A DNA stretch of 64,000 nt from Spartinivicinus poritis. Its GTDB lineage: Bacteria; Pseudomonadota; Gammaproteobacteria; Pseudomonadales; Zooshikellaceae. Position 1 is the first letter of the stretch, and the number at the start of each line of letters is the position of its first letter. Both the position numbers and the translations under genes were made by a program. The notes under the pieces were generated by a model that worked only from the letters and a program-made list of their open reading frames with translations, searched no databases and was not told where the DNA came from. The stretch covers positions 62,001 to 126,000 of the forward strand of contig NZ_JAPMOU010000005.1 of NCBI RefSeq assembly GCF_028858535.1, read 5' to 3'. Shown here in pieces: positions 10,715 through 31,702 of the stretch.

Positions 10715-13261
10715 CTAATCCATAAAAGTTGACATCTCTTCGCACACTATGCCAAATGATTTAACAAAATGGTCAATTTCTTCTTTAGTGATGATAAGAG
10801 GAGGCTGAATTCTCATCACAGTGGAGCTGTTTGCAGTAATGAAAGTGAGAATGTGATGATCATTACCTAGCTTGGTTACAAAGCGCATACAAAACATTTC
10901 GGCTAATGATTTTTCCATTTCTTTTATCACACCAGACATATGGCCTTTTAATTCATCAGGCAAAAACTGGTAAGTACGAAACCAGTCTCCGGGAAAGCGA
11001 GTTGCTAGCTCATTGGCGCAAGCCTCAACAGCTCCCTGAAAATTTTGTTTAAATTGAATACCTAACATTAGCCCCTGGCCGCGAATAGCTGATATAAAAG
11101 GGTATTTGGATGCAATTTTTTCAAGCCCTTGTTTTAAATATAATCCCTGCTTATCAGCTTTTTCAAATAATTTTTGCTCAATAATAGAATTAATGGCTGC
11201 TAATCCAGTTGTTGCTGCTAGGTTACCGCCACCAAAAGTCGATGTGTGAACTAGAAATCGACCACTAGTGCCGTACGCGGCATCCCATATTTTTGCAGTA
11301 CTCAGGGTTGCTCCTATAGGCACTAATCCACCTGATAGTGACTTAGAAAGAATAAGAATATCTGGATTAATATTTTCCCACTCACAAGCAAATAACTTGC
11401 CTGTACGCCCCATACCGGTTTGAATTTCATCTACTATAAACAAGGTATTAGTTTGACGACAAAGGGTTTCTGCTGCTTTTAAATAACCTGATGGAGGAAC
11501 ATAAACACCTCCTTCTCCTTGAATCGGTTCAATAATGAATGCTGCGGTATCTCTTTTTTCAAGTACTGCCCTCAATGCGTCAATATCACCAAAGGGGACG
11601 CTGACACAGCCAGGTAATAATGGCCTGAAATGTTTACAGTGTTTTTCTCGTCCAGTAATCGATAAAGCACCTAGTGTTTTACCATGATAGCTATTGTCTG
11701 CATATACCAACTGTGGGCGATTACTTGCTGCTTTCGCGAGTTTAATTGCAGCTTCAACAGCCTCTGCACCTGAGTTACTAAAAAAGACGCGCTCCATTTT
11801 TCCTGGAGTGATTTGGCATAGGCGTTCAGCCAACTGAGAAGTTTGTTTCGGGATGGAAATATATTGTATAAAGTTTGGTGTATCACTTTGTAAAAACTGT
11901 TGAGCAGCCTCTACAACAGCTGTTGGGTTATGGCCTAAATTTAAACAGCCATAACCTGCAACCATATCCAGATATTGAGTCCCATTGGTGTCTGTTAGTG
12001 TCGACTTTTCTGCGCGTTCAAACACACGGTCACAGTGTTGCATTTGCAGAAAGTCAGCCATCATCGGATTAATGTGGCTTCGAAATCGATGTATGGTTTG
12101 AGATCGAGTATCTACTGGTAAATGTTGCTGAGAACTTAGTTCTGTATTGACAGGGCTAGTATGGGTTTTATCGATAACACGATTAAAATGGTAATGGCGG
12201 AAATGTTCAATCGCTTCTTTACTGATGCGATGGCCATAAGATGCTAACGGTAGAGTAAAAAAACCATGTTGCTCAGCAAGTTTACCTATTTCAATCACTT
12301 TTTCAGGGGCTAAATCCCGCCCAATAGAAAAGCATTCAGCTCGGTTTTCTAAAGCGAGTACCATTGTTTCTGCTAAGCAGCCGTTAAGTTGTTGTTTAAT
12401 GCCTAAATTTAATGACTCACCACCAAATTTCACTTGATTGGATGCTGTAACACAGCCGCCATCAATAATTAAAATATCGTTACGTGGTGTTACGAGTTGT
12501 GTGACGTCTCTTGGTAAAGCAATATCAACAACAATTGCACCTGGCATGAGTTTGTTTGCATTAATGACGCCACCCGATGAAGTTGCAGTTGCATAAATTA
12601 AGTTGCGTTGATAGCAATCATCAATCTTATCAGTTACCGTTATTTTATCATGCCACTTTTCAGGGATGTCTTCTAAAATTTCCGATTTACTGGCATTACG
12701 TGTTCTATGAACTAAATCAAGGTGACATCCTAGTTTGAGTAGCAGTTTGGTTAACGACAGACAGATTGATCCAGGATAACCAACAATCGCAATTCGGGTA
12801 TTGTCTGGCTTTAGCTTTAGCCAATCTATCAGTTGTACGATAACTTTATATCCAGAATAAGTCGTAAGAGAATTACCACTGGTTACAGGAAGCTTTGCTT
12901 GCTTTGCTGTTTCTAAGCCGCGCTTGCCAATAATAGAAGTGAAACCACCTAGGCCCACTAACTGAGAGCCCATTAATTCCATGGACGCAATGCCATCAAA
13001 AATACGTTGTTGAACAGTTCGTGCTGACTGGAGCATTTCTTCAGCAGTCATGGGTAAATAATGAACAATACCTTCACATACACTACCTGTTGCAGATTGT
13101 ATTTGCCCAAAGTCAACAAATGGTATTAAGTTACGATGGCTCCAAAGTTGTCGGTCATAACCACTGTGTAAGTCTTTTGTCGTTCTATCGAACATATCAA
13201 GCATTTTAACATATCGTTTAAGGCCGATAGAGGTTGGGTGTGCAATGAATCCAAATTTCAT
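10715..13261 (-). CDS. pigE: PigE: aminotransferase of the MAP branch of prodigiosin synthesis
   Basis: 848 aa from the ATG at 13261, chosen over an upstream TTG because GGAGAG lies 6 bases before it. The N-terminal 370 residues resemble an acyl-ACP-reductase/thioester-reductase-like NAD(P)-binding module (GLGGFTSIIGKRG, TSGNSLTTYSGYK, IAIVGYPGSI). The C-terminal part is a class III PLP aminotransferase with FSNSGAEAVEAAIKLA, FIVDEIQTGMGRTG and the Schiff-base lysine about residue 640 in LSKSLSGG. In Serratia, PigE aminates 3-acetyloctanal, whose product cyclises to H2MAP; the reductase part may supply the enal precursor. It follows pigD with a 19-bp gap. Domain order, length and neighbours all agree with PigE. 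Confidence 0.92.
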   Translation of the reverse strand: MKFGFIAHPTSIGLKRYVKMLDMFDRTTKDLHSGYDRQLWSHRNLIPFVDFGQIQSATGSVCEGIVHYLPMTAEEMLQSARTVQQRIFDGIASMELMGSQLVGLGGFTSIIGKRGLETAKQAKLPVTSGNSLTTYSGYKVIVQLIDWLKLKPDNTRIAIVGYPGSICLSLTKLLLKLGCHLDLVHRTRNASKSEILEDIPEKWHDKITVTDKIDDCYQRNLIYATATSSGGVINANKLMPGAIVVDIALPRDVTQLVTPRNDILIIDGGCVTASNQVKFGGESLNLGIKQQLNGCLAETMVLALENRAECFSIGRDLAPEKVIEIGKLAEQHGFFTLPLASYGHRISKEAIEHFRHYHFNRVIDKTHTSPVNTELSSQQHLPVDTRSQTIHRFRSHINPMMADFLQMQHCDRVFERAEKSTLTDTNGTQYLDMVAGYGCLNLGHNPTAVVEAAQQFLQSDTPNFIQYISIPKQTSQLAERLCQITPGKMERVFFSNSGAEAVEAAIKLAKAASNRPQLVYADNSYHGKTLGALSITGREKHCKHFRPLLPGCVSVPFGDIDALRAVLEKRDTAAFIIEPIQGEGGVYVPPSGYLKAAETLCRQTNTLFIVDEIQTGMGRTGKLFACEWENINPDILILSKSLSGGLVPIGATLSTAKIWDAAYGTSGRFLVHTSTFGGGNLAATTGLAAINSIIEQKLFEKADKQGLYLKQGLEKIASKYPFISAIRGQGLMLGIQFKQNFQGAVEACANELATRFPGDWFRTYQFLPDELKGHMSGVIKEMEKSLAEMFCMRFVTKLGNDHHILTFITANSSTVMRIQPPLIITKEEIDHFVKSFGIVCEEMSTFMD

Positions 13262-13280
13262 TTGTGACTCTCCATAATTG

Positions 13281-15731
13281 CTATACTTCAATTAATGAGG
13301 ATTCTGATTGATTTTGGTATGGTTTTAATACGGGATCATCTCTTTGCCAACCAGTCGCTGTAGCTAAACTAATACCATCACCTTCATTATTATGAGAAAC
13401 CACTACTGAAAAGAGGTTAATACGCTGAGGTTCAAGTAACGCACTTGCTAACATTTGATTATCAAATGTTTCGATTGTTTGGGATTTAATTTTGAGTCCA
13501 CATAAATCATCTTCCCAATCTGGAAAATGAATATTAACTAAGCGCATTTGCCGTGAAGTTCGCTTAAACAATATACGTTCTTGATAAGTATTAATAACTG
13601 AATGGCCTGCATTCTGAAAAAAGAAAATAGTAATATTTTTGTTCATTTGATTAGGGTGTGCTATAGCATTTTCTATAAAACTAGGTAATACATCTGGTAC
13701 TACGCCTTTTGCACCATCCCCAATAAAGGCGATGATATTGGTTGGGCAGGTATAGGCAATCCCGACTGATGCTAATAGTGCATCTCCCATGAGTGCCCGA
13801 CCATACCATCCAGAAAAACCTCTTCTTGTTTTGGCTACATTGCGTATTGCTGAGATGCCACACCGACCTACGTCATATAAGCCTGTATAGTCGTATCCAT
13901 GCTCAACAATGAGCCGTTCGATAAGATCGTTTAGCTTTGCAAAAAAGAAGTTTGGGCTCATTGGTAAAGTAGGTAATTTATTGACAACATCTGAAGGTGT
14001 ATCTATTAAAGAGTTTATTGTATGATAACGCTTTATACGCAATGTGTTAGGTACGTTAAGATGTTCATTGACATAATGGAGAAAATCCAGGTAGTTCATT
14101 GTTAAACCATGATTTGTAAAGGGAGCAATATGGTTTGGATTATTAGTCAACTGAACAATATCAATTTTTCGTTCTAATCTACCTTCAGGAAACGGGGTAG
14201 CAATTTGTGGGATTTTACTTTTTAAGAAAAATAAACACTGTTCACCAGGTGGGTTGAGTTTATTATTGGTATGTAAATAATTATACACTCGAGGCGAATA
14301 TCCATAAATACTCAGTGTGCCTAAGTAATTAGAATTTCTTTTTCCATTATAAAACTTTGGAATCACGCCAGGATATGTTAAAGAATCTACGAGAGCGATA
14401 CCTGCTCTACTTGCAATAGATAGCGTCATTTCTAATTCAGTATCATTCATTGGACCACACTGCCATAAAAGCTTTTCTGGACCATGATTAATAATATCAA
14501 CTACTTTATCAAGTGTTTGTTGACAAGGTGAAATACTGGTAGCTTTATTCTGGTGGCTATTTTTTTTAGAAAAATTTATATCGATATGGCTTACCGCTTC
14601 AAGAACGGCTTGTGTAACGAGCAAAACTACTGGACCTTGCTCTAAATCATATAGCTCAGCTACTTTTAGTAGATCATTATCAACATTATCAATATTATCC
14701 ATGTAGAGATGAGGAACTCGATAAGCAGCGAGTACATCTCGAGTATCTTCATCTTGTGAGATAGTGCCTTGAAAGGCGAACCATTGATTTGCTCTATTTT
14801 CAGCACAAATTATAATTCCTTTCGCTTTTGCATCTCTTAAGTTGGCTAAAGTACCTTTAAATTCATCAATCATTCCACTGGTAACTACGATTAAAAAAGG
14901 TTTTTGATATAGTTGCCAGTTAGCCATTGCACCACAAGCAAGACTATGTTCACTAGGGCCTCTTAGCGCTGGAATGCCCATGGGTTTAATTTTTGACTCT
15001 ACATACTGAATGAGTGATGAAACGATTGAGCCAGTAAAATAAAAAAACAACCAATTATTTTGTGCTTTGAGAGAAAATAGATTTAGCAGTTGCTCTCCAA
15101 GCAAATTGTGAGGAATGTCTTTTATGGTTGGCTTGATACGGCGATTAGCATAACTCATTTCAAAAAAGTCCATCCATAAACAAAGCAACTTGGTTTGTAA
15201 TACAGACCGCTCTGTTGGCAATATACACTCAATATATTGCATTGGTTGATAGCGTATTTTACTGTGATTTGTATTTGTAAATGCAGCAGCAGTAAAAGAT
15301 GAGTAAAAAGAATTGACCTGAGATTCTTTTAATGAAGCATAAAACTCTACAAGCTCTTGGTCGAGCTTTTGTGGTGTAAGCGCATTATTTTCTATTTTAG
15401 TATAATCCACATAAACCATGCCAATTTGTAGCTCAGCACTACTTGTTATATTCGGGAGGTTAATTATTTTTTCTGAGGCCCTTTTTAAGCTTGGAGCTTG
15501 AATAACTTTAACTGAAATATTGTCTTTGCGCTTGTTTAAATAATTAATGGCCTTATTTTTTGCTTCCTGAAACACGGAGTCAGTTGAAGAGGGGATGAAT
15601 TTGTAGCTTATATCAGCATCAATAGTGACTTGTTGTATAACTTTACCCTGTAAGTCACTCAATGCACTTAATCCAGCCTCAAAAAAAAAGTTACTTTCTG
15701 TAATGACAACTACACCAATAGTAATGTCCAT
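13281..15731 (-). CDS. pigD: PigD: ThDP-dependent 3-acetyloctanal synthase
   Basis: 816 aa, close to Serratia PigD in length. It is a thiamine-diphosphate enzyme: the C-terminal domain has the cofactor motif beginning GDGAKGVVPDVLPSF (GDG at 671-673) and the following QNAGHSVINTYQERI, while a glutamate-containing PYR-like domain lies around GPSEHSLACGAMANWQ. By family knowledge PigD decarboxylates pyruvate and adds the two-carbon unit to 2-octenal (Stetter-type 1,4-addition) to give 3-acetyloctanal, the PigE substrate. A T9 tract lies near the 5' end (about 15680). It starts 49 bp after pigC, with AAGGA before the ATG. Confidence 0.92.
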   Translation of the reverse strand: MDITIGVVVITESNFFFEAGLSALSDLQGKVIQQVTIDADISYKFIPSSTDSVFQEAKNKAINYLNKRKDNISVKVIQAPSLKRASEKIINLPNITSSAELQIGMVYVDYTKIENNALTPQKLDQELVEFYASLKESQVNSFYSSFTAAAFTNTNHSKIRYQPMQYIECILPTERSVLQTKLLCLWMDFFEMSYANRRIKPTIKDIPHNLLGEQLLNLFSLKAQNNWLFFYFTGSIVSSLIQYVESKIKPMGIPALRGPSEHSLACGAMANWQLYQKPFLIVVTSGMIDEFKGTLANLRDAKAKGIIICAENRANQWFAFQGTISQDEDTRDVLAAYRVPHLYMDNIDNVDNDLLKVAELYDLEQGPVVLLVTQAVLEAVSHIDINFSKKNSHQNKATSISPCQQTLDKVVDIINHGPEKLLWQCGPMNDTELEMTLSIASRAGIALVDSLTYPGVIPKFYNGKRNSNYLGTLSIYGYSPRVYNYLHTNNKLNPPGEQCLFFLKSKIPQIATPFPEGRLERKIDIVQLTNNPNHIAPFTNHGLTMNYLDFLHYVNEHLNVPNTLRIKRYHTINSLIDTPSDVVNKLPTLPMSPNFFFAKLNDLIERLIVEHGYDYTGLYDVGRCGISAIRNVAKTRRGFSGWYGRALMGDALLASVGIAYTCPTNIIAFIGDGAKGVVPDVLPSFIENAIAHPNQMNKNITIFFFQNAGHSVINTYQERILFKRTSRQMRLVNIHFPDWEDDLCGLKIKSQTIETFDNQMLASALLEPQRINLFSVVVSHNNEGDGISLATATGWQRDDPVLKPYQNQSESSLIEV

Positions 15732-15780
15732 AGTGTGATTCCTTTTTATTTATTAATGAAAGCTTAAAATAGAACGCGTA

Positions 15781-18468
15781 CTAGGTATTGGCTTTCTTTT
15801 CAATTCGAATAACTCCAGCATCGCCATCGATGAATATTAAGTCACCTGTTTGGATTTTTTGAGTTGCAGATATTGAGTTTACTACTGCTGGTATTCCAAA
15901 TTCTCTAGATACGATTGAACTATGAGATAGCGTTGAGCCTATATCAGAAATAACACCTGATGCTAAAGCAAATAATGGTGTCCAAGAAGCATCAGTAAAC
16001 TTCGTAACTAATATTTCCCCTTGCTTGAATGACTCTACCTGAGTTGTTAAATCTGTGATCACTCGAGCATATGCAGTTATAGAGCCAGGACTGGATCCTA
16101 GGCCATAAATAACAGATGAGTCATTATCTTGAGTAACATTAACTTTTCGTTTAGATATATGTTGGCCAATAATTGCCATGGGAGGGTCTTCTAAATTAAG
16201 GTTGACTAAATGGCGATGCCTATTTTCATTTACTTTAGTTTTACTAAAGGCTAATTCTGCTGGTTTACGTCCTGCTACGTAATCTCGAAACGTATTAAAA
16301 TCTATATAAGGAATATCATTTTGATCAATAATGCCTTGTTTTACTAATCGGCTAGCCACTTCGTATACTATTTTTCTATAGAACCATGTTTCTGAAATAT
16401 AAGTAGGGCGGGTAGCTTCTCTTCGCTCTGCCATTTTACTATAAGCTGCAATGACAAACTTAATTTTTAATTTTGCTTTTAACGGCAGGCATGAAATTAA
16501 TTGTTCTGTATCAGCTTCTCTTAGTTCACTCACTTTGGTTAATCTTGAATCCAACTTTAGGTCGCTGCCAAGGTACATTCTAATCATTTGTAAAATATAG
16601 ATTGGGTCATCATTCCAACGTGGTATGGTTAGCTCAAATTCTTGTCTACCTCGAGAACCAAAATTGTAAAGGAAATCAGAAAAATCTTGATACCAGAATA
16701 TCCTACCTTCTGAATCATTTTTAAGTGTGGCAACTAATTGGTCTAGAGAGGTATTGATAAATAGGTTTGTTAATTTAGGAGAGCGACGAACTGTCTCAGC
16801 AAGCACATTGACTGCTTTAGTTACTTCAATTGTTCTTAACCCATTCATTGATGCTTTTATTCTGTTTTGTAATCCATTGCCTTGGTGGCCCAGAAATTTA
16901 TCACAAAGCTCGGTAAGTAAATCGTATAAAGCAAAGGATTGAAGAAAGAATGGCATATAAGCAGCACAAGCTTCTAGAAAATGCTTATCAATTCTTTCTA
17001 ATTCTTTATTTAATGCAGTTAAGCTCATTGAATTTAGGTCGAGCTTATGAAAACGAGCGGTTTCTTTTTTTCTCAAAGCTATCATTTTTTTGACGATACG
17101 CTCAGAGCTAAACAGGTTTCTTATTTGACAGTAAAGCCAGTAGATGCTGCTTTTAAAATATTGAACACCAGCGGTAGGCTCACCATAGGGATTAATATAG
17201 TTGGAAAAATCGATAGTATCAGTAGCATAGCGTTTAGTAAACTTCATTGGATCATGGGTTGGTGGACACTGAGTTAATAATTTTGCTGAAGCGGAAATAT
17301 TTAAATACACATGACCTTGGATATAGCCCATATAGTGCTGCGATTTGCCAATATCTAATAAACCCATTTTTTTAATCGCAGGTCCATGAATATTATGTTG
17401 ATAAAAATGGCAAAAAGATAAACCTAAAGGGGTCATTAACCCTGTGACTATTTCTCCCGTATCCATCCTTGAAAACATGGCATTATCACGAATGAAATCA
17501 TTTGTTTCTTCTGAGTCTGCACACAGCTTTGTTATTTTTTTTTCAGTTGTAATTGGTCTTGCTTGTAAAATCCAAATTTTATTATCTTTAACAGCCCACT
17601 CAATATCTAACTCATTATCATAATGTTTACGGATAGCTTCTGATTGCTGAGCAAGCTTTATTGCCTGTTCATCGGTCAAAGATGCTGCATGCACTTTATT
17701 TGTGGGCACATCTAAGAGTGAAATTATCCCTGGAGTAGCACGCCCTGACATTGTTTGTTTGGGTCGAACGACTTTATCAATAACTGTAAAATTAGTTTTA
17801 TCAATAATATAGCTATCAGTCGTTACTTGGCCAGATACTACTCCTTCGCCTAATCCCCAACAAGATTCTACTATTATATGGTTTTTATTTCCATTCACTG
17901 GATCTTGAGTAAACAGCACACCTGCTGCATCTGCGTCTACCATTTCCTGTATAATGACACCAATAGCAGAATCTTTATATGAGTTTAAAGGCTTATTGTT
18001 TTGATAACTATCTACTCTATCTGCCCAAATAGATCCCCAGCATAGTTTGATACTTTCAGTAACTGATTGCTCGCCATGGATATCTAAATATGTTTCAAAC
18101 TGCCCAGCATAAGATTGAGTGATGCTATCTTCATTCATTGCAGAAGACCTAACAGCTACTCTCCCTTTACCTATTTTATTATAAGCTTCTATAATACTTT
18201 TATGTATAGGCTCAGGTAAGTTAGTTTGTTGAATTTTATTACGAATTTTTTTACATGTTGCTGTATCATAACGATCAAAACTGTTTATCCAGTCTTCTAG
18301 GCCTGATTCTTTTAAAAATGCTTGATAAGCAGAGACAGTGACACAATAAGCTTTAGGAACAGGAAAGCCTGCATGAACTAATTTGTTCAGTGATTTCGCC
18401 TTACCACCGAGGTTATTGTAGTCGCTACTATGTCCAATATGTGCTACAAAATTATGCTGTTTACTCAT
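15781..18468 (-). CDS. pigC: PigC: terminal condensing enzyme, MBC + MAP to prodigiosin
   Basis: 895 aa, matching PigC/RedH-type enzymes. The N-terminal domain is a PEP-synthase-like ATP-grasp (NLGGKAKSLNKLVHAGFPVP near residue 20, VAVRSSAMNEDS near 105). The C-terminal swivelling domain carries the phospho-carrier histidine in GSTLSHSSIVSRE (about H849). A long middle segment shows no other catalytic motif. In Serratia this ATP-dependent ligase joins 4-methoxy-2,2'-bipyrrole-5-carbaldehyde and 2-methyl-3-amylpyrrole as the final step and works at the membrane. It starts 30 bp after pigB, with GGAG before the ATG. Presence of both substrate branches in the window supports the call. Confidence 0.95.
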   Translation of the reverse strand: MSKQHNFVAHIGHSSDYNNLGGKAKSLNKLVHAGFPVPKAYCVTVSAYQAFLKESGLEDWINSFDRYDTATCKKIRNKIQQTNLPEPIHKSIIEAYNKIGKGRVAVRSSAMNEDSITQSYAGQFETYLDIHGEQSVTESIKLCWGSIWADRVDSYQNNKPLNSYKDSAIGVIIQEMVDADAAGVLFTQDPVNGNKNHIIVESCWGLGEGVVSGQVTTDSYIIDKTNFTVIDKVVRPKQTMSGRATPGIISLLDVPTNKVHAASLTDEQAIKLAQQSEAIRKHYDNELDIEWAVKDNKIWILQARPITTEKKITKLCADSEETNDFIRDNAMFSRMDTGEIVTGLMTPLGLSFCHFYQHNIHGPAIKKMGLLDIGKSQHYMGYIQGHVYLNISASAKLLTQCPPTHDPMKFTKRYATDTIDFSNYINPYGEPTAGVQYFKSSIYWLYCQIRNLFSSERIVKKMIALRKKETARFHKLDLNSMSLTALNKELERIDKHFLEACAAYMPFFLQSFALYDLLTELCDKFLGHQGNGLQNRIKASMNGLRTIEVTKAVNVLAETVRRSPKLTNLFINTSLDQLVATLKNDSEGRIFWYQDFSDFLYNFGSRGRQEFELTIPRWNDDPIYILQMIRMYLGSDLKLDSRLTKVSELREADTEQLISCLPLKAKLKIKFVIAAYSKMAERREATRPTYISETWFYRKIVYEVASRLVKQGIIDQNDIPYIDFNTFRDYVAGRKPAELAFSKTKVNENRHRHLVNLNLEDPPMAIIGQHISKRKVNVTQDNDSSVIYGLGSSPGSITAYARVITDLTTQVESFKQGEILVTKFTDASWTPLFALASGVISDIGSTLSHSSIVSREFGIPAVVNSISATQKIQTGDLIFIDGDAGVIRIEKKANT

Positions 18469-18498: not shown

Positions 18499-20181
18499 TT
18501 AAACAGCTTGTTTATTTGGTATAGTATTATTATAGTGATTACTAAGATAGGCAATGGTACTAGTTGCTGCCCAATTACCAGCATAAATTGCTGATTCAAT
18601 ATTTCCAATACCTATACTATCTTGGTTAGCAAAGAAAAGGCCTTTATTTGGACTAGAAGCCAAATTAAAAATATTATTTTTAATTTGACCAATTTCTGAT
18701 ATGACAAGCCCTTGATTCCAGCGCCATATTTTTATGTCTTTAATAATTTGGCTTGATTGGCCTGCAGCTTCTAGGATATCACATACTTCACTTAATACTG
18801 ATAATTGTAAATCTTTAAAATCTATTTTATTGAGTTTACCTTGATCTTGACTATTAGCAATTGGTTTTAAAAGGGTGATGATGCCATAGTCATCTGGATA
18901 GCCAGGGTCTTGCCAATTAGCAACTAGGCAAGTACCTGCTTTACACCAAATATTAGTATCGGTACACGAGGTTAAATCTTCAATTAAATACCCACCAAAC
19001 TTGTCAGGCCAAATAGGCTCATTTAAAAAAACACCTGCTATACAATAATCATGATGTTTAATAGCCTTCATTGCCTGTAGCTGATTAGTGGGTATGTGTT
19101 TTATAGCATTTATCGCTGAATATTTTGGTGCGGCCCAAATTACTGACTTTGCTTTCACTTCTAGCATTTGATTTTGCTGAGAGTAGCGAATAATATAGTT
19201 ATTATCCTGTTCTGTAATAGAAATAACCTTTGATTTACTTTGTAGAGTACAGTTTTTACATGAACTCAGATTTCTTTCTAATTGCTCTGAAATATAACCA
19301 TTTCCCCCTGGAAAGGCAACTAATGTGCCATATAAATAGCCAACTAAAAAGTATATTCCTACATAAGCTGAAACAGATTTAGTTGATAAACACTCTACTC
19401 TTAAGGTTGTTTCAATTGAGTTAATAACTAATGATCCGATTTTGTAACTAGGAACTAATTCTTTGGGTAGAGTTCTTCTTATATCATGATTACAAAATAA
19501 ATCATGTAAAGAAATAGAGTCGAATAACTCCATTTCTTCTCTACTCCATTGGCAGTTGTTATGCCATGGCAGCTGAGGGTGTTTGTTCGATGGAGTGAAT
19601 TTTTCTAAATATTTAAATAATTCTATAAATACAGGGTCTCCTAATTTTTTTGGGGCCGCAACATATCTTTTTTTTGTTACTAAGTTAGTGACTAAGTTTT
19701 TTGATAAAGCATAAATTGATGGGTTTTTTAATGATGATGGTTGCTTTAAAAGAGATTTTGTGACTTCGTTTAAATTTTTTATTAGTTCTTTTGTATTAAA
19801 TAGAACAAGCGTATCCTCATCAGTTTCTTGCCACTTATTCCATAAGTCGAGATCCATTAATAGCTTTCCAACATCGCTTTCAAGTAATGGTTTTTGAAAA
19901 CATGTCCCTGCTGTTGAAAATCTTAAGTCATTCCACTGGTTTGAACAGGCATTTCCTCCTAGTTTATTTCCTTGGTCAAGTAAAAGTGTGGAGTAGTGCT
20001 CCCTCACTTGCCATGCAGCTGTTAAACCAGAAATTCCTCCTCCAACTATTACAATATCATATTCTCCAACATGTTCTATTGCTTGACTACCTTTTACTTG
20101 AAAGTCATCATATATACTTTCAAAGTTGTTGCTGGGAAATAATGGTATTGATTTTTCATTGCCACCTGTTTTATCTATCAT
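18499..20181 (-). CDS. pigB: PigB: FAD-dependent H2MAP oxidase
   Basis: 560 aa FAD/NAD(P)-binding amine-oxidase-like flavoprotein. A Rossmann dinucleotide motif VGGGISG lies at about 46-52, followed by LLLDQGNKLGGNA; the C-terminus has the matching flavin contact (GLFFANQDSIGIGNIESAIYAG). PigB oxidises dihydro-MAP to the aromatic pyrrole MAP. From memory the Serratia protein is about 670 aa with membrane segments at its N-terminus. Here that part is absent, and a separate small membrane protein is encoded directly upstream with only 7 bases between, so the protein may be split in two. Flanking pigA and pigC support the identity. Confidence 0.85.
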   Translation of the reverse strand: MIDKTGGNEKSIPLFPSNNFESIYDDFQVKGSQAIEHVGEYDIVIVGGGISGLTAAWQVREHYSTLLLDQGNKLGGNACSNQWNDLRFSTAGTCFQKPLLESDVGKLLMDLDLWNKWQETDEDTLVLFNTKELIKNLNEVTKSLLKQPSSLKNPSIYALSKNLVTNLVTKKRYVAAPKKLGDPVFIELFKYLEKFTPSNKHPQLPWHNNCQWSREEMELFDSISLHDLFCNHDIRRTLPKELVPSYKIGSLVINSIETTLRVECLSTKSVSAYVGIYFLVGYLYGTLVAFPGGNGYISEQLERNLSSCKNCTLQSKSKVISITEQDNNYIIRYSQQNQMLEVKAKSVIWAAPKYSAINAIKHIPTNQLQAMKAIKHHDYCIAGVFLNEPIWPDKFGGYLIEDLTSCTDTNIWCKAGTCLVANWQDPGYPDDYGIITLLKPIANSQDQGKLNKIDFKDLQLSVLSEVCDILEAAGQSSQIIKDIKIWRWNQGLVISEIGQIKNNIFNLASSPNKGLFFANQDSIGIGNIESAIYAGNWAATSTIAYLSNHYNNTIPNKQAV

Positions 20182-20188
20182 AATGCTT

Positions 20189-22609: not shown

Positions 22610-24415
22610 ATGCAAGACTTAATATGTGAAAAATATGTGGTTAATACTATATCATTGCATACTGGCTATGAAAAATCAGTGTTAGAACTTAATGCTGAAC
22701 TTGAAGCTAAATTAGGAATAGACTCGATTACGCTACACGGTATATTGACTGAAATTGATAAAACATTGGGCTCAAACTCAATATCAAATATTCATAACTG
22801 TGTTGTCATTAGTGATATTATTGATAATATAGAGAATTTTTCAGATAAAATACCTAAACAATTTTCCACTGATATTGATGATAATGAGTCAAAAGTATCT
22901 AAAGCAATAGCATTTGATAATAAATCTAATAATAATGACTGGAGCAAGATATTTAAAGATAGATTTAATTTGACATTAAATAATGATGATAACCTCTGCA
23001 ATAAATTAGCTCCTGAGCTATATGATGAATTATTGGCTTATGTTAAAAATATTGTTAAAGGTAACTCAGTAATTAGTATTAATGATTGTAATTCGCTCAG
23101 TGATATTGCTACTTTTATCGAGCTTGTTGTAGGAAAACCAGATCAATCAGCGTTAGCGCTTGATACCAGTAATTTGACAATGAAGGATTTTCATGAATAT
23201 AAAAATCCTGACTTATTTGCAAAAGCTTATCGATTTAGAGACTTCTATCACTCTAGAACTGCTGATGGTAGCTATTGGTATGGAATGCCAATGCTAAGCC
23301 GTAGCACAGGTCGTGCTGTAATTTATGATGAAGTGAGAAAAGAAAAGCGTCAATTTATTATGATGGCTTCGAATAATTATTTAGGGTTAGCGAACCACCC
23401 TAAAGTAATTGAAGCGATTACATCAGCTGTTAAGAAGTATGGTGCTACTCACACTGGCAGTCGTATTATTGGGGGAACAAACCATCTCCATAAGGAATTA
23501 GAACAACGTTTAGCTTCTTTCAAAGGGACTGATGATGCAATAGTGTTTCCATCTGGCTACTCTGCAAATGTAGGTACTATATCGGCATTGGTTAGAAAGT
23601 ATGATGCAATTATTGTTGATAAGTTTAACCATATGTCCATTATGGATGGTGCAAAGCTTTCAGGTGGTGCAGTCAAAATATATCGTCATAATGATATGGC
23701 CCATCTAGAAACTGTATTACGTGATCACTGTAATGATGTTGAAGGCAAACTGATAGTTATTGATGGTGTCTTTAGTATGCATGGTGATGTATGTGATTTA
23801 CCAAGTATTGTTCGGCTGGCTAAACAGTATAATGCTAAGGTAATGGTTGATGATGCGCACTCAACAGGTGTATTAGGTAAAACAGGTAGTGGTACCGCAG
23901 AACATTTTGGCTTAAAAGGTCAGGTTGATTTAGAGCTAGGCACATTTAGCAAAACACTTTCTGGTGTAGGAGGGTTCGTTTGTGGTCGCTCAGAAGTGAT
24001 TGAGTATTTACGCTTTTTTGCTAACGCTTATGTTTTTGCTGCTACTATTCCAGCCCATGTTGCTGCAGGACTAATTGCATCATTAGACGTAATGCAGACA
24101 GAGCCTGAAAGACTACAACAGTTATGGAATAATGTTAATTATTTTAAAACTGAACTAATAAAACTTGGATTTGATACTGAACATAGTGAAAGTGCAGTTA
24201 TTCCAATTGTTATCAAAGATCATAAACTGGCTCTTGAGTTTGGCAAGAAAGTACGAGATAAGGGTGTTTATTGCCAAACGGTAGTTTATCCTGGTGTGAG
24301 TGTTGGTGATGAACGTTTAAGAATAAGTATCAGCTCAGAACACTCAGATGTTGATTTAAACCAAGCATTAGATGTATTTACAACTGCTGGGCGTTCATTA
24401 GGGATTATTAATTGA
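22610..24415 (+). CDS. pigH: PigH: carrier-protein/PLP alpha-oxoamine synthase making HBM
   Basis: 601 aa. An N-terminal acyl carrier domain has its serine at S39 (KLGIDSITL). A second carrier-like segment at about 105-175 aligns with the first, but the serine motif is replaced by KLAPELYDE (132-140), so it appears unable to take a phosphopantetheine arm. Residues from about 210 form an alpha-oxoamine synthase: ATHTGSRIIGGT, VDDAHSTG (413-420) and the PLP lysine K448 in GTFSKTLSGVGG. In Serratia, PigH binds a malonyl unit on its carrier, PigJ condenses it with pyrrolyl-PCP, and the PLP domain adds serine to give 4-hydroxy-2,2'-bipyrrole-5-methanol. Codon use in the N-terminal third is extremely AT-rich. 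Confidence 0.93.
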   Translation: MQDLICEKYVVNTISLHTGYEKSVLELNAELEAKLGIDSITLHGILTEIDKTLGSNSISNIHNCVVISDIIDNIENFSDKIPKQFSTDIDDNESKVSKAIAFDNKSNNNDWSKIFKDRFNLTLNNDDNLCNKLAPELYDELLAYVKNIVKGNSVISINDCNSLSDIATFIELVVGKPDQSALALDTSNLTMKDFHEYKNPDLFAKAYRFRDFYHSRTADGSYWYGMPMLSRSTGRAVIYDEVRKEKRQFIMMASNNYLGLANHPKVIEAITSAVKKYGATHTGSRIIGGTNHLHKELEQRLASFKGTDDAIVFPSGYSANVGTISALVRKYDAIIVDKFNHMSIMDGAKLSGGAVKIYRHNDMAHLETVLRDHCNDVEGKLIVIDGVFSMHGDVCDLPSIVRLAKQYNAKVMVDDAHSTGVLGKTGSGTAEHFGLKGQVDLELGTFSKTLSGVGGFVCGRSEVIEYLRFFANAYVFAATIPAHVAAGLIASLDVMQTEPERLQQLWNNVNYFKTELIKLGFDTEHSESAVIPIVIKDHKLALEFGKKVRDKGVYCQTVVYPGVSVGDERLRISISSEHSDVDLNQALDVFTTAGRSLGIIN

Positions 24416-24473: not shown

Positions 24474-24785
24474 ATGTTAATTATTCATAAAATAAAATTG
24501 AAAGAAAAGGTCTCTGCTCTAGACTTTGAAAATTGGGTTAAAGAAAAAGATTATCTTGCATGTGAGTCTTTAGATGGTGTTGTACGATTTGCGGTACATA
24601 GTGTGCAGGATAAAAGTGAGAATTTTGACTATGTGGAAACAATATTTGTTAATGACATAACTGTTTTCGAGCAAGATATGAATAAACCTATATTCAAATC
24701 GCTTGAAAAAGATTTTTATGCAATGGCGGAAGTGGTTGAGGAAATAGAGTTAAATACTATCTCACCTGGTTATAACTGGTTTTGA
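24474..24785 (+). CDS. pigK: PigK/HapK-like small protein
   Basis: 103 aa, soluble, about the size of Serratia PigK and Hahella HapK (REDY-like family, a ferredoxin-like dimeric alpha/beta barrel). Features are an initial beta strand (MLIIHKIKLKE), FENWVKEKDYLACESLDGVVRFAVH and an aromatic C-terminus ending GYNWF. No enzyme activity is firmly known for the family; a helper role in bipyrrole formation has been proposed. It sits between pigH and pigM inside the MBC-branch operon. Identity rests on size, position and overall pattern. Confidence 0.75.
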   Translation: MLIIHKIKLKEKVSALDFENWVKEKDYLACESLDGVVRFAVHSVQDKSENFDYVETIFVNDITVFEQDMNKPIFKSLEKDFYAMAEVVEEIELNTISPGYNWF

Positions 24786-26011: not shown

Positions 26012-26025
26012 TGTAATCAAGAAAA

Positions 26026-27597
26026 ATGGCTGATATGATTATGTATAATTTTACCAACCTAAGTGACTTAATATCTACAGGGTTAAAGCAGAACCCAAAT
26101 GGTACAGCGTTAATTGCTAATAATATTCAGTTGACCTATCTGGAATATAATAATGCAATTACACAGGCGATAGCAACACTAATGAAAAATGGTGTTAAAA
26201 AAGGAGATACAGTTGCTATTGTATTACCTAAGTCAATAGAGTCATTGATTACGGTGATGGCTATTATTAAGCTAGGTGCTGTATATGTACCCATCGATAT
26301 TGCACTGCCTGATGAACGAGTGCTTTATATCATCAATAACTGTCAATGTAAGGTTGTGATTGCCGATTGCCGTTGGTTAGAAAACATAAAAAGTTTAATT
26401 GCAGCAGATGCACAACTTATCTTGATAGAGATGTCTTATGAAGAACTGATAAATCAAGAAGGAAGTTTAATACCATTTCATGATGTAGCCATTCATCTGG
26501 ATGATTTATTATGTATTTTATATACATCAGGATCCACCGGACAACCGAAAGGTGTCAAGATAACCCATCGAAATTTACTGAATTTTATCAACTGGGCACT
26601 GTTAACCTTCAATGTCAGTAAGTTTGATGTATTTGCTTGGCATGCAAAACTCAACTTTGATATCTCTACTTTTGATATTTTTTCATCTTTAGCAGTAGGT
26701 GCAAGCCTAGTGATACTCGACGATGATGAAATAATGAATCCTTATATATTAGCGGAAAAAATTTATAAACATCAGATTTCAGCGTGGTATTCAGTACCTT
26801 CAATTTTACAACTAATGACAAAAACTAATGTGTTAAAACACTTTGACTGTCAGTCACTAAGATATGTTTTGTTTGCAGGAGAAGTATTTCATCCTAAATC
26901 ATTAAAACAACTTACCATCATGTTGCCAACGGCTAGATTTTTTAATTTGTATGGGCCAACTGAAACGAATGTCTGTACTTTTTTTGAAGTCAATGTTGAT
27001 CAATTAAGTGAAACCCAACCGCTTCCTATAGGGATGTGTTTGCCTAATGTGGTTGCAAATGTATGTGATGAAAATGGTCACCCTGTAGCGGAGGGGTGTA
27101 AAGGAGAACTTATCATTAGTGGACCCTGTGTCACGCCTGGCTACTGGGGGGCCAAAGATCCTTTAATTGCTCAGCAGCATGCAAATAACACCCACTATAC
27201 AGGTGACTTAGTCCACCAAGAGAATGGCTGTTTGTATTATCATGGTCGTATAGATGGCATGGTTAAAATTAATGGTAACCGAGTTGAGCTAGGTGAAATA
27301 GAGCATGTGGTAAATCAATTTAGTGGTGTTATTGATGCGGCAGCTATTATGACTAATAAAGAGGGTTTGCAACAATTAGTTATTTGTTATAAATCAGCAA
27401 TAGGTGAAATTGATTTAATTGATTTAAAAAGGCATTGTGCTCGATTTTTGCCTAAATATATGATTCCTCATAATGCAATGAAAATCACTGAATTGCCATT
27501 AAATCCTAATGGTAAGATAGATAGACGTCGTTTGACGACTTTGCTTGCTAACGATCAAATACCAGTATCAGCTACAACGGCTGCTTTGGAGGTATAA
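26026..27597 (+). CDS. pigI: PigI: L-prolyl-AMP ligase (adenylation enzyme)
   Basis: 523 aa stand-alone adenylation domain of the ANL family. Core motifs are visible: ILYTSGSTGQPKGVKITHRN (A3), NLYGPTETNVC (A5), HYTGDLV (A7), GRIDGMVKINGNRVELGEIE (A8) and the A10 lysine in NPNGKIDRR. It activates L-proline with ATP and transfers it to PigG. Its stop TAA overlaps the pigJ start (TAATG), so translation is probably coupled. Neighbours confirm the pathway. Confidence 0.93.
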   Translation: MADMIMYNFTNLSDLISTGLKQNPNGTALIANNIQLTYLEYNNAITQAIATLMKNGVKKGDTVAIVLPKSIESLITVMAIIKLGAVYVPIDIALPDERVLYIINNCQCKVVIADCRWLENIKSLIAADAQLILIEMSYEELINQEGSLIPFHDVAIHLDDLLCILYTSGSTGQPKGVKITHRNLLNFINWALLTFNVSKFDVFAWHAKLNFDISTFDIFSSLAVGASLVILDDDEIMNPYILAEKIYKHQISAWYSVPSILQLMTKTNVLKHFDCQSLRYVLFAGEVFHPKSLKQLTIMLPTARFFNLYGPTETNVCTFFEVNVDQLSETQPLPIGMCLPNVVANVCDENGHPVAEGCKGELIISGPCVTPGYWGAKDPLIAQQHANNTHYTGDLVHQENGCLYYHGRIDGMVKINGNRVELGEIEHVVNQFSGVIDAAAIMTNKEGLQQLVICYKSAIGEIDLIDLKRHCARFLPKYMIPHNAMKITELPLNPNGKIDRRRLTTLLANDQIPVSATTAALEV

Positions 27598-30203
27598 TGG
27601 CTGAGCCAATCGCTATTGTAGGAATAGCGGGTTGTTATGGTGGTTATCAAAGCCTGACAGATTGGTGGCAAGCGGTAGGCACAATTGATAAGCAGCGATC
27701 AGATCCAGCTATTGCTACCCCTTCTGTATATAAGCTTCCGCAGATAGATTTTCAGGCATTAATTAAGCAGTTTCGCATACCTCCTGTTTATCTTAAAACA
27801 TTGCCTGAAGTGTTATTACGGGTACTCTCAGTAACTGAGCAAGCTATTTTACAAGTTGAACAAGGTGGGACAATTAATCGTCTTACAAGCGATGTTTATT
27901 TTGCGGGAGGACAACCGTTTGCCAATATTTGCAATAATGCACTTAGGGTCAATGCAGTTGAGTTTGCAGCAACATTATCTTCTGTAGAACAAAACCTTTT
28001 CATGCAAGCGGTCACAGCATTGCCTGCCAATTTTAATGATAAACTTTATGAGCTGTCAGCCTCTATTGCTAGTCAGATAGCCGTTCAGTTTAAATTTCAG
28101 GGGCGAGCAATGTCGTTTGATGGTTACGATTTGGGGGCAGCCTGGGCACTCGATACGGCTATAAATAATTTACGTACACATCAGTCTGAGTTAGCATTAG
28201 TGTGTGCAGGCCAGGTTTATGACTCTACGTTGTTACTCAGCTTATTGAAACTAGCTAAGCTAATTGATCGACGTCAGTTAACATTGGGAGAGGGAGTAGG
28301 GGCGCTAGTATTAATGCGTCAAAGTGACGCTGTTAGGCAGCAACGGCCAATTTTAGCATTATTAACCGGCATGAGTGTATGGCAGCAGCCGGGTAAAGGT
28401 GCCTTTAACTATAATGTACGGCAGTCGCTTCAGCAAAAAATAATCCGAAAAGCCTTAGCGCAAAGTGAGCAGCAATCAATAACAAAATTAAAACATGCAT
28501 TGTTAAGTAGTACGCCCTTTACTTGGCAAGAAGAATATCAGGCATTATCTGCCGTTTATCAACCGTCTCAACCCCATCTTACCTGTACTTCAACGGTAGG
28601 CTCGATAGGTCATACTTTCGCTTGTGCTCCATTAGCAGCAATTAGTTATGGGGTAATGGCTATGCAGCATGAGCAGTGGCCAGCTATTGATCCTGTTGCT
28701 AACAGCCAAGTCGTTCAGTGGCAACATGAGCCTATTATATCTGTTGCAATTAATTCGATTGGTATTGGTGGGGGTTGTGCTCATGTAGTATTAGCTGCTA
28801 ATAGCCCTAAGCCTTCAGCTACTGTGGTCAAACCCCATTTTTCTCCAGTTGCAGTGGTGGGTATCGGGGTGAATTTTGCGTTGGGTGACACGACTGAGCA
28901 GTTTTGGCGCAACAATTTATTAGGTAAGAATACGTTGCTGCCACTATCTGAGGATAATTTAGCGAATGGGTTAGTAAGTAAAGATGGGTGTTATGATGTT
29001 AACCGCAGTTATACGCGGCTGGCATCGCAAATTCAGCTATCGACTATGCAGTGTCCTGCTGGTATGTTGCCTCATCGATGGTTAGCATTGGACCCTTCTC
29101 AGAAATTAGCAATTTGGCTTACCCAGAAAGCTATTCAAGACTGGGAGTTGAGTGAGGAATATTTACTTAAACAACCAAACATGGGAGTGTATTGGGGCAC
29201 TAATCAAAGCAATAAAACAGCGCGAGATTATGGCGCTACCTATTTAAATCAAGAGCAGTTTGCTTTTCTGTTAGACAAATTTAAAATACCAAAGTCTTTA
29301 CAACAGCGCTGGCAACGTTGGTTAGTTGAGCAATTAGGAGAGCCTGGTCGGTTTGCTTTTGATGGTGGACTAGCATCAGGTATCCCTTTAGCAACTATAC
29401 AACAACTGGGTATTGTTGGAAAGACGGTAGCGACACAAGCGGCTTGTGCTTCTTCTTTGGCTGCCATTGATATTGCTTGTCGCGCATTACAGTTGGGAGA
29501 AATTGATGTAGCGCTGGCTGGCGGATTAGAATTAGGCGCAAATCACTATGAGCTTGTTTTATGTTCAAGAATGCAACTCTTGTCTCCTAATATTATTACT
29601 CCATTTGATGTTAGTGCCGATGGGTTTTCAATTGGTGAAGGTGGTGCTTTATTTGTTTTAAAACGACTTGATGATAGCATACGTGACGGTGATCGGATCT
29701 ATGGCGTGATTCGAAGTATAGGGGCTTCTAATGATGCTATTTCTATGATGGCACCTTCTGCTCAAGGTCAAGCACTTGCGATTGATCGAGCATTTAATCA
29801 GGTGGACTTGTTACCAAGAGATATTGAGTTTATCGAAATGCATGGTACGGGTACAACTAAAGGTGATGTGATAGAAACTCAGGCAGTATCGAACAGCTAT
29901 GGTGCTGTTGTACGACAAAACCCGCTTTATTTAGCTTCAATCAAATCATTAATAGGCCATACGATGGCAGCTGCAGGTGCTGCTGGCTTATTGCGGGCAT
30001 TATTAGCCGTTTATCATGGGACATTTCCTCATACGATTAATATTTGCCAGCAAAACCCGTCACTTGCTTTAGTGGATAATCTACAAGCGATAATACCGAC
30101 GGAGCCAGTTCCCTGGAATAGCCAACAGCCCAGGAGAGCGGGAGTTAACTCGTTTGGGACTGGTGGAATTAATTACCATCTACTTGTAGAGCAACATCTT
30201 TAA
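27597..30203 (+). CDS. pigJ: PigJ: tandem ketosynthase for pyrrole-malonate condensation
   Basis: 868 aa with two ketosynthase folds. The C-terminal one (about 415-868) is complete: catalytic C617 in QAACASSLAAI, HGTGTTKGD and KSLIGHTMAAAG histidines, and a GGINYH-type end. The N-terminal one (1-405) keeps the fold and a late histidine (GSIGHTFAC) but lacks the cysteine (FDGYDLGAAW at that place) and the HGTGT motif, like a chain-length-factor partner. PigJ decarboxylates the malonyl group held by PigH and joins it to pyrrolyl-S-PigG. GGAGG precedes the start inside pigI. Confidence 0.92.
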   Translation: MAEPIAIVGIAGCYGGYQSLTDWWQAVGTIDKQRSDPAIATPSVYKLPQIDFQALIKQFRIPPVYLKTLPEVLLRVLSVTEQAILQVEQGGTINRLTSDVYFAGGQPFANICNNALRVNAVEFAATLSSVEQNLFMQAVTALPANFNDKLYELSASIASQIAVQFKFQGRAMSFDGYDLGAAWALDTAINNLRTHQSELALVCAGQVYDSTLLLSLLKLAKLIDRRQLTLGEGVGALVLMRQSDAVRQQRPILALLTGMSVWQQPGKGAFNYNVRQSLQQKIIRKALAQSEQQSITKLKHALLSSTPFTWQEEYQALSAVYQPSQPHLTCTSTVGSIGHTFACAPLAAISYGVMAMQHEQWPAIDPVANSQVVQWQHEPIISVAINSIGIGGGCAHVVLAANSPKPSATVVKPHFSPVAVVGIGVNFALGDTTEQFWRNNLLGKNTLLPLSEDNLANGLVSKDGCYDVNRSYTRLASQIQLSTMQCPAGMLPHRWLALDPSQKLAIWLTQKAIQDWELSEEYLLKQPNMGVYWGTNQSNKTARDYGATYLNQEQFAFLLDKFKIPKSLQQRWQRWLVEQLGEPGRFAFDGGLASGIPLATIQQLGIVGKTVATQAACASSLAAIDIACRALQLGEIDVALAGGLELGANHYELVLCSRMQLLSPNIITPFDVSADGFSIGEGGALFVLKRLDDSIRDGDRIYGVIRSIGASNDAISMMAPSAQGQALAIDRAFNQVDLLPRDIEFIEMHGTGTTKGDVIETQAVSNSYGAVVRQNPLYLASIKSLIGHTMAAAGAAGLLRALLAVYHGTFPHTINICQQNPSLALVDNLQAIIPTEPVPWNSQQPRRAGVNSFGTGGINYHLLVEQHL

Positions 30204-30235
30204 TTACTATTTATATAATAGGAAATCAAATAAAA

Positions 30236-30886
30236 ATGATCTCGCAAGAACAAATAGAAACAGGACAGGAAGTCTACTCACCCAATATACTGAAGATATA
30301 TGATATTATGGTTTTGAGCCTGTCAAATCGGTTTATTTGGAAAAGTAAAAAAAAAATAACCCAGACATTTTTTGATAATGCTGTCACTAATAACCATTTA
30401 GATGTTGGAGTGGGTACGGGCTACTTTTTAGATCACTGCCAGTGGCAGCAAAAACCCCGTATTGGTTTAATGGACTTGAACGAAAACTGTCTGCAAGAAG
30501 CGAAAAAACGCTTATTACGATATAACCCAGAAATATATTGCTGGGATGTATTTCAACCTATTGAGTTAGAGAATAAATTTGATAGTTGCAGTATGAATTT
30601 TTTGTTTCATTGTTTGCCTGGGTCAATTAAGGAAAAATTACAAATTATTAATAATTTAAAAGGTGCATTAAACCCTGGAAGCACTGTTTTTGGTACAACA
30701 GTGCTTTATGATGGGGTGAAAAAATCTTTTTTTGCTGAAAAGCTAATGCGCTTCTATAACAAAAAAGGAATTTTCTCTAATTATGGAGACTCCTTATCTG
30801 AAATGCAAAAATTACTACCTGAGCTAGGAGAAGTTGAGCAGCTTTCGACTGAGGGGTGTGTTTGTTTTTTTAAACTAACGGTATGA
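30236..30886 (+). CDS. Class I SAM methyltransferase, probable PigF equivalent
   Basis: 216 aa with the SAM-binding motif LDVGVGTGYFLD (motif I), acidic LMDLNENCL after strand 2, and FLFHCLPG plus LNPGSTVFGTT further on. This is the small Rossmann methyltransferase type. From memory Serratia PigF is a larger (about 340 aa) O-methyltransferase with a dimerisation domain, which this protein lacks. By position, between pigJ and pigN, it should O-methylate HBC to MBC, possibly as a non-orthologous replacement. A run of ten A residues at 30347-30356, near codons 38-41, is a possible slippage site. Role inferred from context; the methyltransferase fold is certain. Confidence 0.75.
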   Translation: MISQEQIETGQEVYSPNILKIYDIMVLSLSNRFIWKSKKKITQTFFDNAVTNNHLDVGVGTGYFLDHCQWQQKPRIGLMDLNENCLQEAKKRLLRYNPEIYCWDVFQPIELENKFDSCSMNFLFHCLPGSIKEKLQIINNLKGALNPGSTVFGTTVLYDGVKKSFFAEKLMRFYNKKGIFSNYGDSLSEMQKLLPELGEVEQLSTEGCVCFFKLTV

Positions 30887-30973
30887 TATTAATTTGTGGC
30901 TGCTGCTATATCTATGGTGAAAGTTAGACGTGAGGGTCAGTAGCCCTAACTGTTGAGTTATAAGGATAGTAAA

Positions 30974-31702
30974 ATGGAATTATGGATTACACTTGGTGTA
31001 GTAATAGCTGTATTATCATTTTTTGCTGCCGGTAGTGCTAAAAAATACCGAGATATGAGAATGCCCTTTATTTGGGGGTTTAACACGTTGTTGCCTGTTG
31101 CTTTGGTATACTGTTTTTATGGTAAAGGCGACTGGCAGCATAAACTACTAATTATCAGCTTCGTAGGCATCTATTTGTTAAGAATGAATGTAGTTTTGAC
31201 AATATGGTATGAGAATACGGCTGCTGCTAAACTAAAAGATGTCATACCGTCTTCACAGTTGACTGGTTTATCATTATTACTTGTTAATATTTTTGGTTGG
31301 ATTTATTGTTTGCCATTTTATTGGGCTGCAGATTTACAAGGTAGTTTTTCTTATTTGGAGTATTCAGCAATAGGTGTATATATAGTAGGAACAATTTGGC
31401 ATTTTGGTAGTGATTATCAAAAGCGCAAATTTAAACTTAACCCAGCAAATAAGGGGAAAATTATAAATGTTGGTTTTTGGCGTTATTCGAGGCATCCAAA
31501 TTACTTCGGCGATTTTTTGATTTTTGTAAGCTTTGGGATGATTTCGGGAAGTATATGGGGAATCGTTGCTCCACTCGCCAATATAGCCCAGTACTTTAGT
31601 GATGCTATTCCAAAAAGTGAAAAAATGGCTGAAGACCGTTATGGTCATGATTGGATGGAATATAAAAAGAGTGTAAAGTGTTTTATTCCATGGGTTTATT
31701 AG
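30974..31702 (+). CDS. pigN: PigN-like membrane protein (DUF1295 / steroid-reductase-like)
   Basis: 242 aa from the ATG at 30974, preferred over a TTG at 30953 because AAGGA lies seven bases before it. Several membrane helices are evident (about 3-20, 35-55, 60-75, 95-120, 135-155, 175-200). The C-terminal part has FWRYSRHPNYFGDF, the signature of DUF1295/5-alpha-reductase and isoprenylcysteine methyltransferase-like proteins. In Serratia, PigN assists PigF in methylation of HBC to MBC. It is the last gene of the rightward pig operon. Confidence 0.85.
   Translation: MELWITLGVVIAVLSFFAAGSAKKYRDMRMPFIWGFNTLLPVALVYCFYGKGDWQHKLLIISFVGIYLLRMNVVLTIWYENTAAAKLKDVIPSSQLTGLSLLLVNIFGWIYCLPFYWAADLQGSFSYLEYSAIGVYIVGTIWHFGSDYQKRKFKLNPANKGKIINVGFWRYSRHPNYFGDFLIFVSFGMISGSIWGIVAPLANIAQYFSDAIPKSEKMAEDRYGHDWMEYKKSVKCFIPWVY

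Follow-up and report, generated by a model that had tools for sequence, protein, structure and literature searches.

The 64,000-nucleotide stretch analyzed here (the window; positions 62001-126000 of contig C5 in a genome of 6.83 Mb) carries, at 10715-31702, a nearly full prodiginine gene set on two divergent operons. The gene set is far beyond chance, and the region is confirmed as a prodiginine cluster; it is the second member of a cluster type already published for Spartinivicinus ruber, and as such belongs to a known class without being unusual in it. Taking the comparisons together, we hold with good confidence that this Spartinivicinus-type cluster is most likely functional, would make linear heptylprodigiosin, is a probable mosaic by descent, and uses a small methyltransferase in place of PigF. 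What is new is the mosaic descent and the exchange of O-methyltransferase, both probable, and a missing cyclase gene. An earlier note on this DNA had described a nearly complete prodigiosin cluster in a divergent, reordered layout; that note is silent on the division of PigB, on the lack of PigF and PigL, and on the missing cyclase.

Gene content and layout

PigE, PigD, PigC and PigA pass their NCBIfam equivalog cut-offs, and the pigC product reaches 975 bits with the RedH model, below that model's cut-off of 1350. PigG, PigH, HapK/RedY, PigM, PigI, the methyltransferase and the PigN-like protein are recognized by Pfam/NCBIfam domains, and the remaining genes are also similar to cluster genes on plasmids of Methylocystis, Pseudoalteromonas and Thioclava and to those of Vibrio. 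Against its own model PigJ scores 263 bits in the window and 521 in the Zooshikella-type protein, both below the cut-off of 900; in the alignment its C-terminal ketosynthase domain keeps Cys-His-His and its N-terminal domain lacks the Cys, and PigH shows one carrier motif with serine (DSI). Present, therefore, are the condensing ligase, the genes for the 4-methoxy-2,2'-bipyrrole-5-carbaldehyde (MBC) branch (A, G, H, I, J and M) and those for the 2-methyl-3-alkylpyrrole (MAP) branch (D, E and a two-gene B). Neither PigF nor PigL is present in the cluster. A phosphopantetheinyl transferase (PF01648) was found neither among the scanned cluster open reading frames (ORFs) nor on contig C5, and the genome has two matches elsewhere. 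The leftward operon reads A, Bn, Bc, C, D, E and the rightward one G, H, K, M, I, J, MT, N (Bn and Bc, the two parts of pigB; MT, methyltransferase), both from a shared 506-bp region, and a luxR-type gene terminates the cluster. This arrangement is unlike the single-strand pig cluster of the Serratia type, described as 'unidirectional' (PMC6667630). The features are:

10715-13291, minus: pigE, aminotransferase, MAP branch; NF053554, 1414 bits (cut-off 850); likely ATG start at 13261
13281-15731, minus: pigD, thiamine-diphosphate enzyme, MAP branch; NF053552, 1400 bits (cut-off 950)
15781-18468, minus: pigC, condensing ligase; NF052631, 1524 bits (cut-off 1300)
18499-20181, minus: C-terminal part of pigB as its own gene, flavin adenine dinucleotide (FAD) oxidoreductase, MAP branch; NF053556 positions 127-654, 593 bits
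20189-20674, minus: N-terminal part of pigB as its own gene, hydrophobic DUF6041 protein; NF053556 positions 2-126, 118 bits; PF19507, 137 bits; likely ATG at 20614
20649-21791, minus: pigA, prolyl-carrier-protein dehydrogenase, MBC branch; NF053553, 662 bits (cut-off 500)
21792-22297, no strand: divergent control region between the two operons, 27% G+C
21978-21997, plus: lux-box-like inverted repeat inside the control region
22298-22561, plus: pigG, carrier protein; PF00550; 71% identity to S. ruber
22610-24415, plus: pigH, carrier plus pyridoxal phosphate (PLP)-dependent domain; BioF/KBL-type PLP models and alignment
24474-24785, plus: pigK/hapK/redY-like gene; PF11639, 87 bits
24818-26011, plus: pigM-like nitroreductase-fold oxidase; PF00881
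26026-27597, plus: pigI, adenylating enzyme of prolyl ligase type; TIGR01733, 335 bits; prolyl ligases among its solved relatives
27597-30203, plus: pigJ, double ketosynthase; NF053555, 263 bits (under the cut-off of 900), and alignment
30236-30886, plus: 216-aa class I S-adenosylmethionine (SAM) methyltransferase, proposed PigF replacement; PF08242 and related; 84% to S. ruber
30953-31702, plus: pigN-like DUF1295 membrane protein; PF06966, 100 bits; 73% to the G436 copy
31873-32619, minus: LuxR-type regulator; PF00196 the sole match over cut-off; 80% to S. ruber
3704-33145, no strand: stretch absent from the congener G401, holding the cluster and its left neighbors; blastn breakpoints against G401

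The S. ruber cluster

In S. ruber the order and strands of the cluster are identical to those of the window, as are the genes, the split pigB, the small methyltransferase, the luxR gene and the site adjoining flhA. The figure 5 legend of PMC7484904 numbers the S. ruber genes as 2295 pigE, 2296 pigD, 2297 PEP-synthase-like (this is pigC), 2300 pigA, 2302 ACP, 2303 pigH, 2304 RedY, 2306 pigI, 2308 methyltransferase, 2310 PRUB680-like and 2311 LuxR; these numbers agree with the order in the window, so the layout was in essence already published in 2020. The accessible part of that paper carries no remark on an absent PigF or a split pigB. The two clusters differ in two respects: a PRUB680-type cyclase gene separates pigN from luxR in S. 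ruber and is lacking in the window, and a trio of genes to the left in the window (MMPL, LolA_like and one of unknown family) found no counterpart in the S. ruber sequence compared (40 kb). The pathway proteins compared share 56-84% amino-acid identity with S. ruber, which makes the window's host a different species of Spartinivicinus.

The gene assignments, coordinates and strands given by the earlier note agree with the ORFs and the NCBIfam/Pfam matches, as does its observation that the MAP and MBC genes are nearly separated by strand, with pigA among the MAP genes. It had named membership of PigC, PigD and PigE in other families as grounds for refutation, and their profile scores, above their own cut-offs, uphold the families. 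The divergent layout it reported is real and, given S. ruber, not peculiar to the window. Its word 'reordered' is probably not the most fitting, since the MBC genes jointly look separately diverged rather than like the neighbors' genes in a new order, with mixed single-gene tests. The synteny comparison it proposed found the G436 (Zooshikella-type) and Pseudoalteromonas clusters on one strand as far as compared and the layout shared with S. ruber; Serratia and Hahella were outside that comparison.

Separate descent of the MAP and MBC genes

Ten clusters were compared: those of the window, S. ruber, G436, G492, G381, Vibrio ruber, Vibrio MEBiC08052, Methylocystis, Pseudoalteromonas xiamenensis and Thioclava. 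G436 and G492 are Zooshikella-type, a genus name that we infer, and the trees leave out Serratia, Hahella, tambjamine and red clusters. In the C-terminal part of PigB and in PigC, PigD and PigE the window shares 49-63% identity with G436, in each case the highest of six comparisons outside the genus, and the joint tree of B, C, D and E groups Spartinivicinus with Zooshikella (99/98, starred). PigN is 73% identical to the G436 copy versus at most 64% to those of Vibrio, Methylocystis and Thioclava. The MBC genes differ: for PigM, J, I, K, G and H the identity between the window and G436 is 28, 32, 41, 39, 33 and 51%, and that between G436 and Methylocystis is 43, 46, 51, 59, 48 and 63%, respectively. 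In the joint tree of G, H, I, J, K and M, Zooshikella falls with the two alphaproteobacteria (97/97); a clade of the family Zooshikellaceae is rejected (approximately unbiased test, p-AU 0.0038). When prolyl-ligase-like outgroups are added to PigI, Spartinivicinus falls outside all other pig clusters (94/93) and the family clade is again rejected (p 0.009); PigH with outgroups gives the same placement with weak support (81/80).

These comparisons suggest that the cluster is probably a mosaic: B, C, D, E and pigN would have a common origin with their Zooshikella counterparts, and G-H-K-M-I-J, possibly with the methyltransferase gene, would not. The MBC genes would then probably be a foreign or anciently separate block rather than the neighbors' genes in another order. 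We are evenly divided on a fuller proposal, in which the Spartinivicinus clusters would be natural chimaeras of a Zooshikella-related MAP half and an MBC operon from a lineage that branched off earlier than every other proteobacterial pig cluster sampled, an operon that brought its own small O-methyltransferase and hence a natural PigF-independent methylation of the bipyrrole. If true, the halves of this bifurcated pathway would be exchangeable as blocks.

Several results weigh against a mosaic. In identity, the closest protein to the window's PigI remains that of G436 (41% versus 33-39%), and PigJ and PigH tie; the family clade is not rejected for PigH with outgroups (p 0.17), for PigJ alone (p 0.16) or for PigI without outgroups (p 0.14). 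Among the MAP genes, single-gene support for the clade is 92/92 for PigC, weaker for PigD (79/85) and weak for PigE (62/57). PigA, which is sited in the MAP operon and is 58% identical to Methylocystis versus 56% to G436, is a further gene that rejects the clade (p 0.027); the split therefore does not follow the operons cleanly. The Spartinivicinus stem measures 2.27 substitutions per site in the joint MBC tree versus 0.34 in the MAP tree, and a stem of such length (about 2.3) makes long-branch pull possible and calls for caution.

The main rival to a mosaic is fast evolution of the MBC block: a single ancestral Zooshikellaceae cluster would have been inverted and shuffled, and its MBC genes would then have evolved fast, with no second origin. 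Every MBC gene is a recognizable orthologue, which is in keeping with such a history, and so are the long MBC stem, the identity of PigI to the Zooshikella-type protein and the three tests, on PigH, PigJ and PigI without outgroups, that leave the common clade standing. Rejection of that clade by the joint MBC genes and by PigI with outgroups speaks against it, however, as do the short stem in the MAP tree, the closeness of PigN to the G436 copy and the absence of PigF as well. We regard plain rearrangement as rather unlikely and retain mosaic descent.

No donor of the MBC block was found in this sampling. Six plasmid records matched PigM (26-28%), the same six that have PigC at about 50% or more, and among the matches listed no closer MBC block appeared with PigJ (15 of 1258 plasmid records), PigI (20 of 3058), PigH (20 of 702), PigA (20 of 1918) or the methyltransferase (15 of 757). 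Besides two Vibrio clusters, a contig scan with PigC returned two loci of Lachnoanaerobaculum, whose similarity is confined to PigC. PigD matched only the window's own genome in a class-wide sample of 369 genomes, and 14 of 390 genomes in an order-wide sample (five above the cut-off). The HapK family occurs in 10 of 390 genomes of the same order; five of these are already known pig clusters, and no pig set surrounds HapK in the four inspected of the other five (the fifth, G470, lay outside the inspection).

O-methylation in a cluster without PigF

PigF is present in all eight comparison clusters outside the genus, and the window's cluster lacks this Serratia-type route of O-methylation. The PigF of G436, used as a query, has an 86% match in G492, no match in S. 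ruber at E<=0.001, and one 24% match in the window's genome, outside the cluster. The S. ruber pigments bear a methoxyl group by NMR (PMC7484904), so another enzyme must methylate there. Both Spartinivicinus operons have the 216-aa methyltransferase gene between pigJ and pigN, and its 84% identity is the top value among the pathway genes compared; position and conservation point to this small SAM methyltransferase as the probable replacement of PigF. Loss of PigF in Serratia gives an orange nor-form (PMC8895007), which makes the exchange testable.

Pigment genes are absent from the three neighborhoods inspected of methyltransferase relatives outside the genus, which weighs against this assignment. 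The plasmid relatives listed (15 of 757 records) are 41-48% identical, and a structure prediction from the single sequence has a mean pLDDT (predicted local distance difference test) of 35.5. Alternatively, the 216-aa enzyme might not be the pathway O-methyltransferase, and a distant one encoded elsewhere might perform the step, for example the protein at G000:C70:312-1250, which is the near-full-length PigF match (24%, E 8.6e-17); the small enzyme has no PigF-type family match, and its sole solved relative at E<=0.01 is a weak match other than PigF (E 4e-4). S. ruber, however, makes a methoxylated pigment in a genome lacking a PigF match at E<=0.001 and keeps the small methyltransferase in its operon, and we consider a distant O-methyltransferase quite improbable and keep the small enzyme as the candidate.

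PigB in two genes

PigB is encoded by two adjacent ORFs in different frames, 7 bp apart, which cover positions 2-126 (118 bits) and 127-654 (593 bits) of a 659-position profile; neither reaches the whole-protein cut-off of 850. The split recurs in six of the ten clusters (window, S. ruber, G436, G492, Methylocystis and Thioclava), and a frameshift as the origin of the two parts is ruled out for this reason; the other four (G381, V. ruber, Vibrio MEBiC08052 and P. xiamenensis) have pigB fused in one ORF. The N-terminal part has several hydrophobic stretches, and a separate hydrophobic subunit would fit the membrane-associated complex of PigB, PigC and PigN/F speculated in PMC10187637. We found no paper on DUF6041 in the open-licence literature. 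If the above assignments are true, a candidate pigment O-methyltransferase from a different family and a natural two-piece PigB would be useful for engineering prodiginines.

Proposed pathway and product

Enzyme roles were assigned by homology to the pathway in PMC6667630 and PMC8895007. In the MAP branch, PigD would add a pyruvate-derived acetyl unit to a 2-enal, PigE would transaminate the product, after which the ring would close, and the two-polypeptide PigB (hydrophobic DUF6041 subunit plus FAD subunit) would oxidize it to the 2-methyl-3-alkylpyrrole. For the MBC half, PigI would load proline onto PigG, PigA would oxidize the prolyl group, PigJ and PigH would build the bipyrrole and PigM would oxidize this to the aldehyde; the small SAM methyltransferase, perhaps with PigN, would add the O-methyl group made elsewhere by PigF. 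The carrier proteins would be activated by a phosphopantetheinyl transferase encoded elsewhere, and PigC would join the two halves.

S. ruber S2-4-1H produces heptylprodigiosin and cycloheptylprodigiosin, known by NMR and mass spectrometry (PMC7484904). In the window 170 bp separate pigN from luxR, where S. ruber has its PRUB680 relative. Close PRUB680 relatives occur in three of the six genomes searched (S. ruber, the query; G436; G381); the window's genome has no close relative, just a partial match (36%) to a protein of 272 aa with counterparts also in G401 and S. ruber. Since this ring-closing gene is missing, a linear product is expected and a cyclized form is not; the product is most likely linear heptylprodigiosin, with [M+H]+ about 352, in place of the prodigiosin (m/z 324) named by the earlier note. 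The choice of a heptyl rather than a pentyl chain comes solely from kinship with S. ruber, and this tells against it. A pentyl product, as in Serratia and, mainly, in Zooshikella, would agree with the PigD, PigE and PigC models, which belong to the prodigiosin pathway, and in Zooshikella species heptylprodigiosin is formed in minor amounts only (PMC7484904). The nearest cluster, however, is that of S. ruber, with heptyl forms as its major pigments (PMC7484904); PigD and PigE are 74% and 80% identical to S. ruber versus 62% and 65% to G492. Pentyl prodigiosin seems to us unlikely, and heptylprodigiosin stays the expected product. The window and S. ruber, with otherwise equal clusters lacking or having the cyclase gene, form a natural test of the proposed cyclase.

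Control region

The lux-box-like repeat at 21978-21997 is the sole match in the window at <=1 mismatch, with 0.07 expected and at least one found in 5 of 100 shuffles. It heads a 29-bp block identical at 27 of 29 positions in S. ruber, and its exact core occurs in one of 110 loci compared, namely S. ruber. A luxR-type gene closes the cluster in both species, and LuxR may drive both operons from this shared site. The regulator has no signal-binding domain recognized by Pfam, and the genomes of the window and S. ruber gave no match for a LuxI-type synthase (PF00765), which G436 has; classical quorum sensing was set aside on these grounds, and the arrangement would be at most a LuxR-solo circuit. 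Structure prediction of LuxR from the single sequence gave a mean pLDDT of 38.5.

Other pig clusters

The Zooshikella-type clusters share with the window the common descent of B, C, D and E, the split pigB and, in G436, the similar pigN. They differ in having pigF, in MBC genes distant in sequence and in a site not beside flhA, and in G436 every gene lies on a single strand, ordered A-B-C-D-E-F-G-H-I-J-K-M. Pathway genes are shared with the Serratia, Vibrio and Pseudoalteromonas clusters, but the two Vibrio clusters and the Pseudoalteromonas cluster have pigF, a fused pigB and, as far as compared, one strand. The plasmid clusters of Methylocystis iwaonis and Thioclava have the split pigB and the pigA-N set, but lie on one strand, include pigF and a pigL-type gene, and place pigA after pigM; in these alphaproteobacterial clusters (L076, L078) a DevC-type ABC (ATP-binding cassette) exporter lies downstream. 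The position of pigA varies a lot among clusters: the V. ruber gene (53%; L097 7834-8976) is on a different contig from pigB-N, and inspection of 6-8 kb upstream of pigB revealed no pigA in either Vibrio (L045, L095).

PigD-PigE pairs (38-40% and 45-55% identity) also occur in the same-order genomes G508, G721 and G511 (L038 10303-19932, L040, L036-L037); the stretches inspected there show neither PigB nor PigC nor close MBC genes. The L038 pair adjoins genes for an acyl-CoA dehydrogenase, a major facilitator superfamily (MFS) transporter and an AMP-binding protein. Such pairs perhaps make a different alkyl-pyrroline or pyrrole product.

Genomic site and neighboring genes

In the third Spartinivicinus genome, G401, neither PigD nor HapK was found. 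Its flhA region aligns with the window up to 3703 and resumes at 33146, with 143 bp between (blastn), and the S. ruber alignment breaks at corresponding places. From the matching breakpoints, the cluster and its left neighbors (about 29.4 kb) form one unit next to flhA that a genome has or lacks as a whole, except for the genes at 4071-8425, which are missing at the S. ruber site; either two species gained the unit or one lost it. Both operons have a G+C content of 36%, compared with 40% at the left end of the window and 45% among the flagellar genes.

The genes at 4071-8425, within the stretch absent from G401, encode an MMPL-family transporter, a LolA_like protein and a protein with no Pfam match, a possible exporter. 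At 8524-10635, adjoining pigE, are genes for an FAD oxidoreductase (cytokinin-dehydrogenase-like) and a glyoxalase-family protein; both are kept in S. ruber (72% and 84%) and are not recognized prodiginine genes. Immediately to the right of the cluster (33208-64000), flhA is followed by a long run of ORFs on the same strand, and the six ORFs next to flhA are also kept beside flhA in G436.

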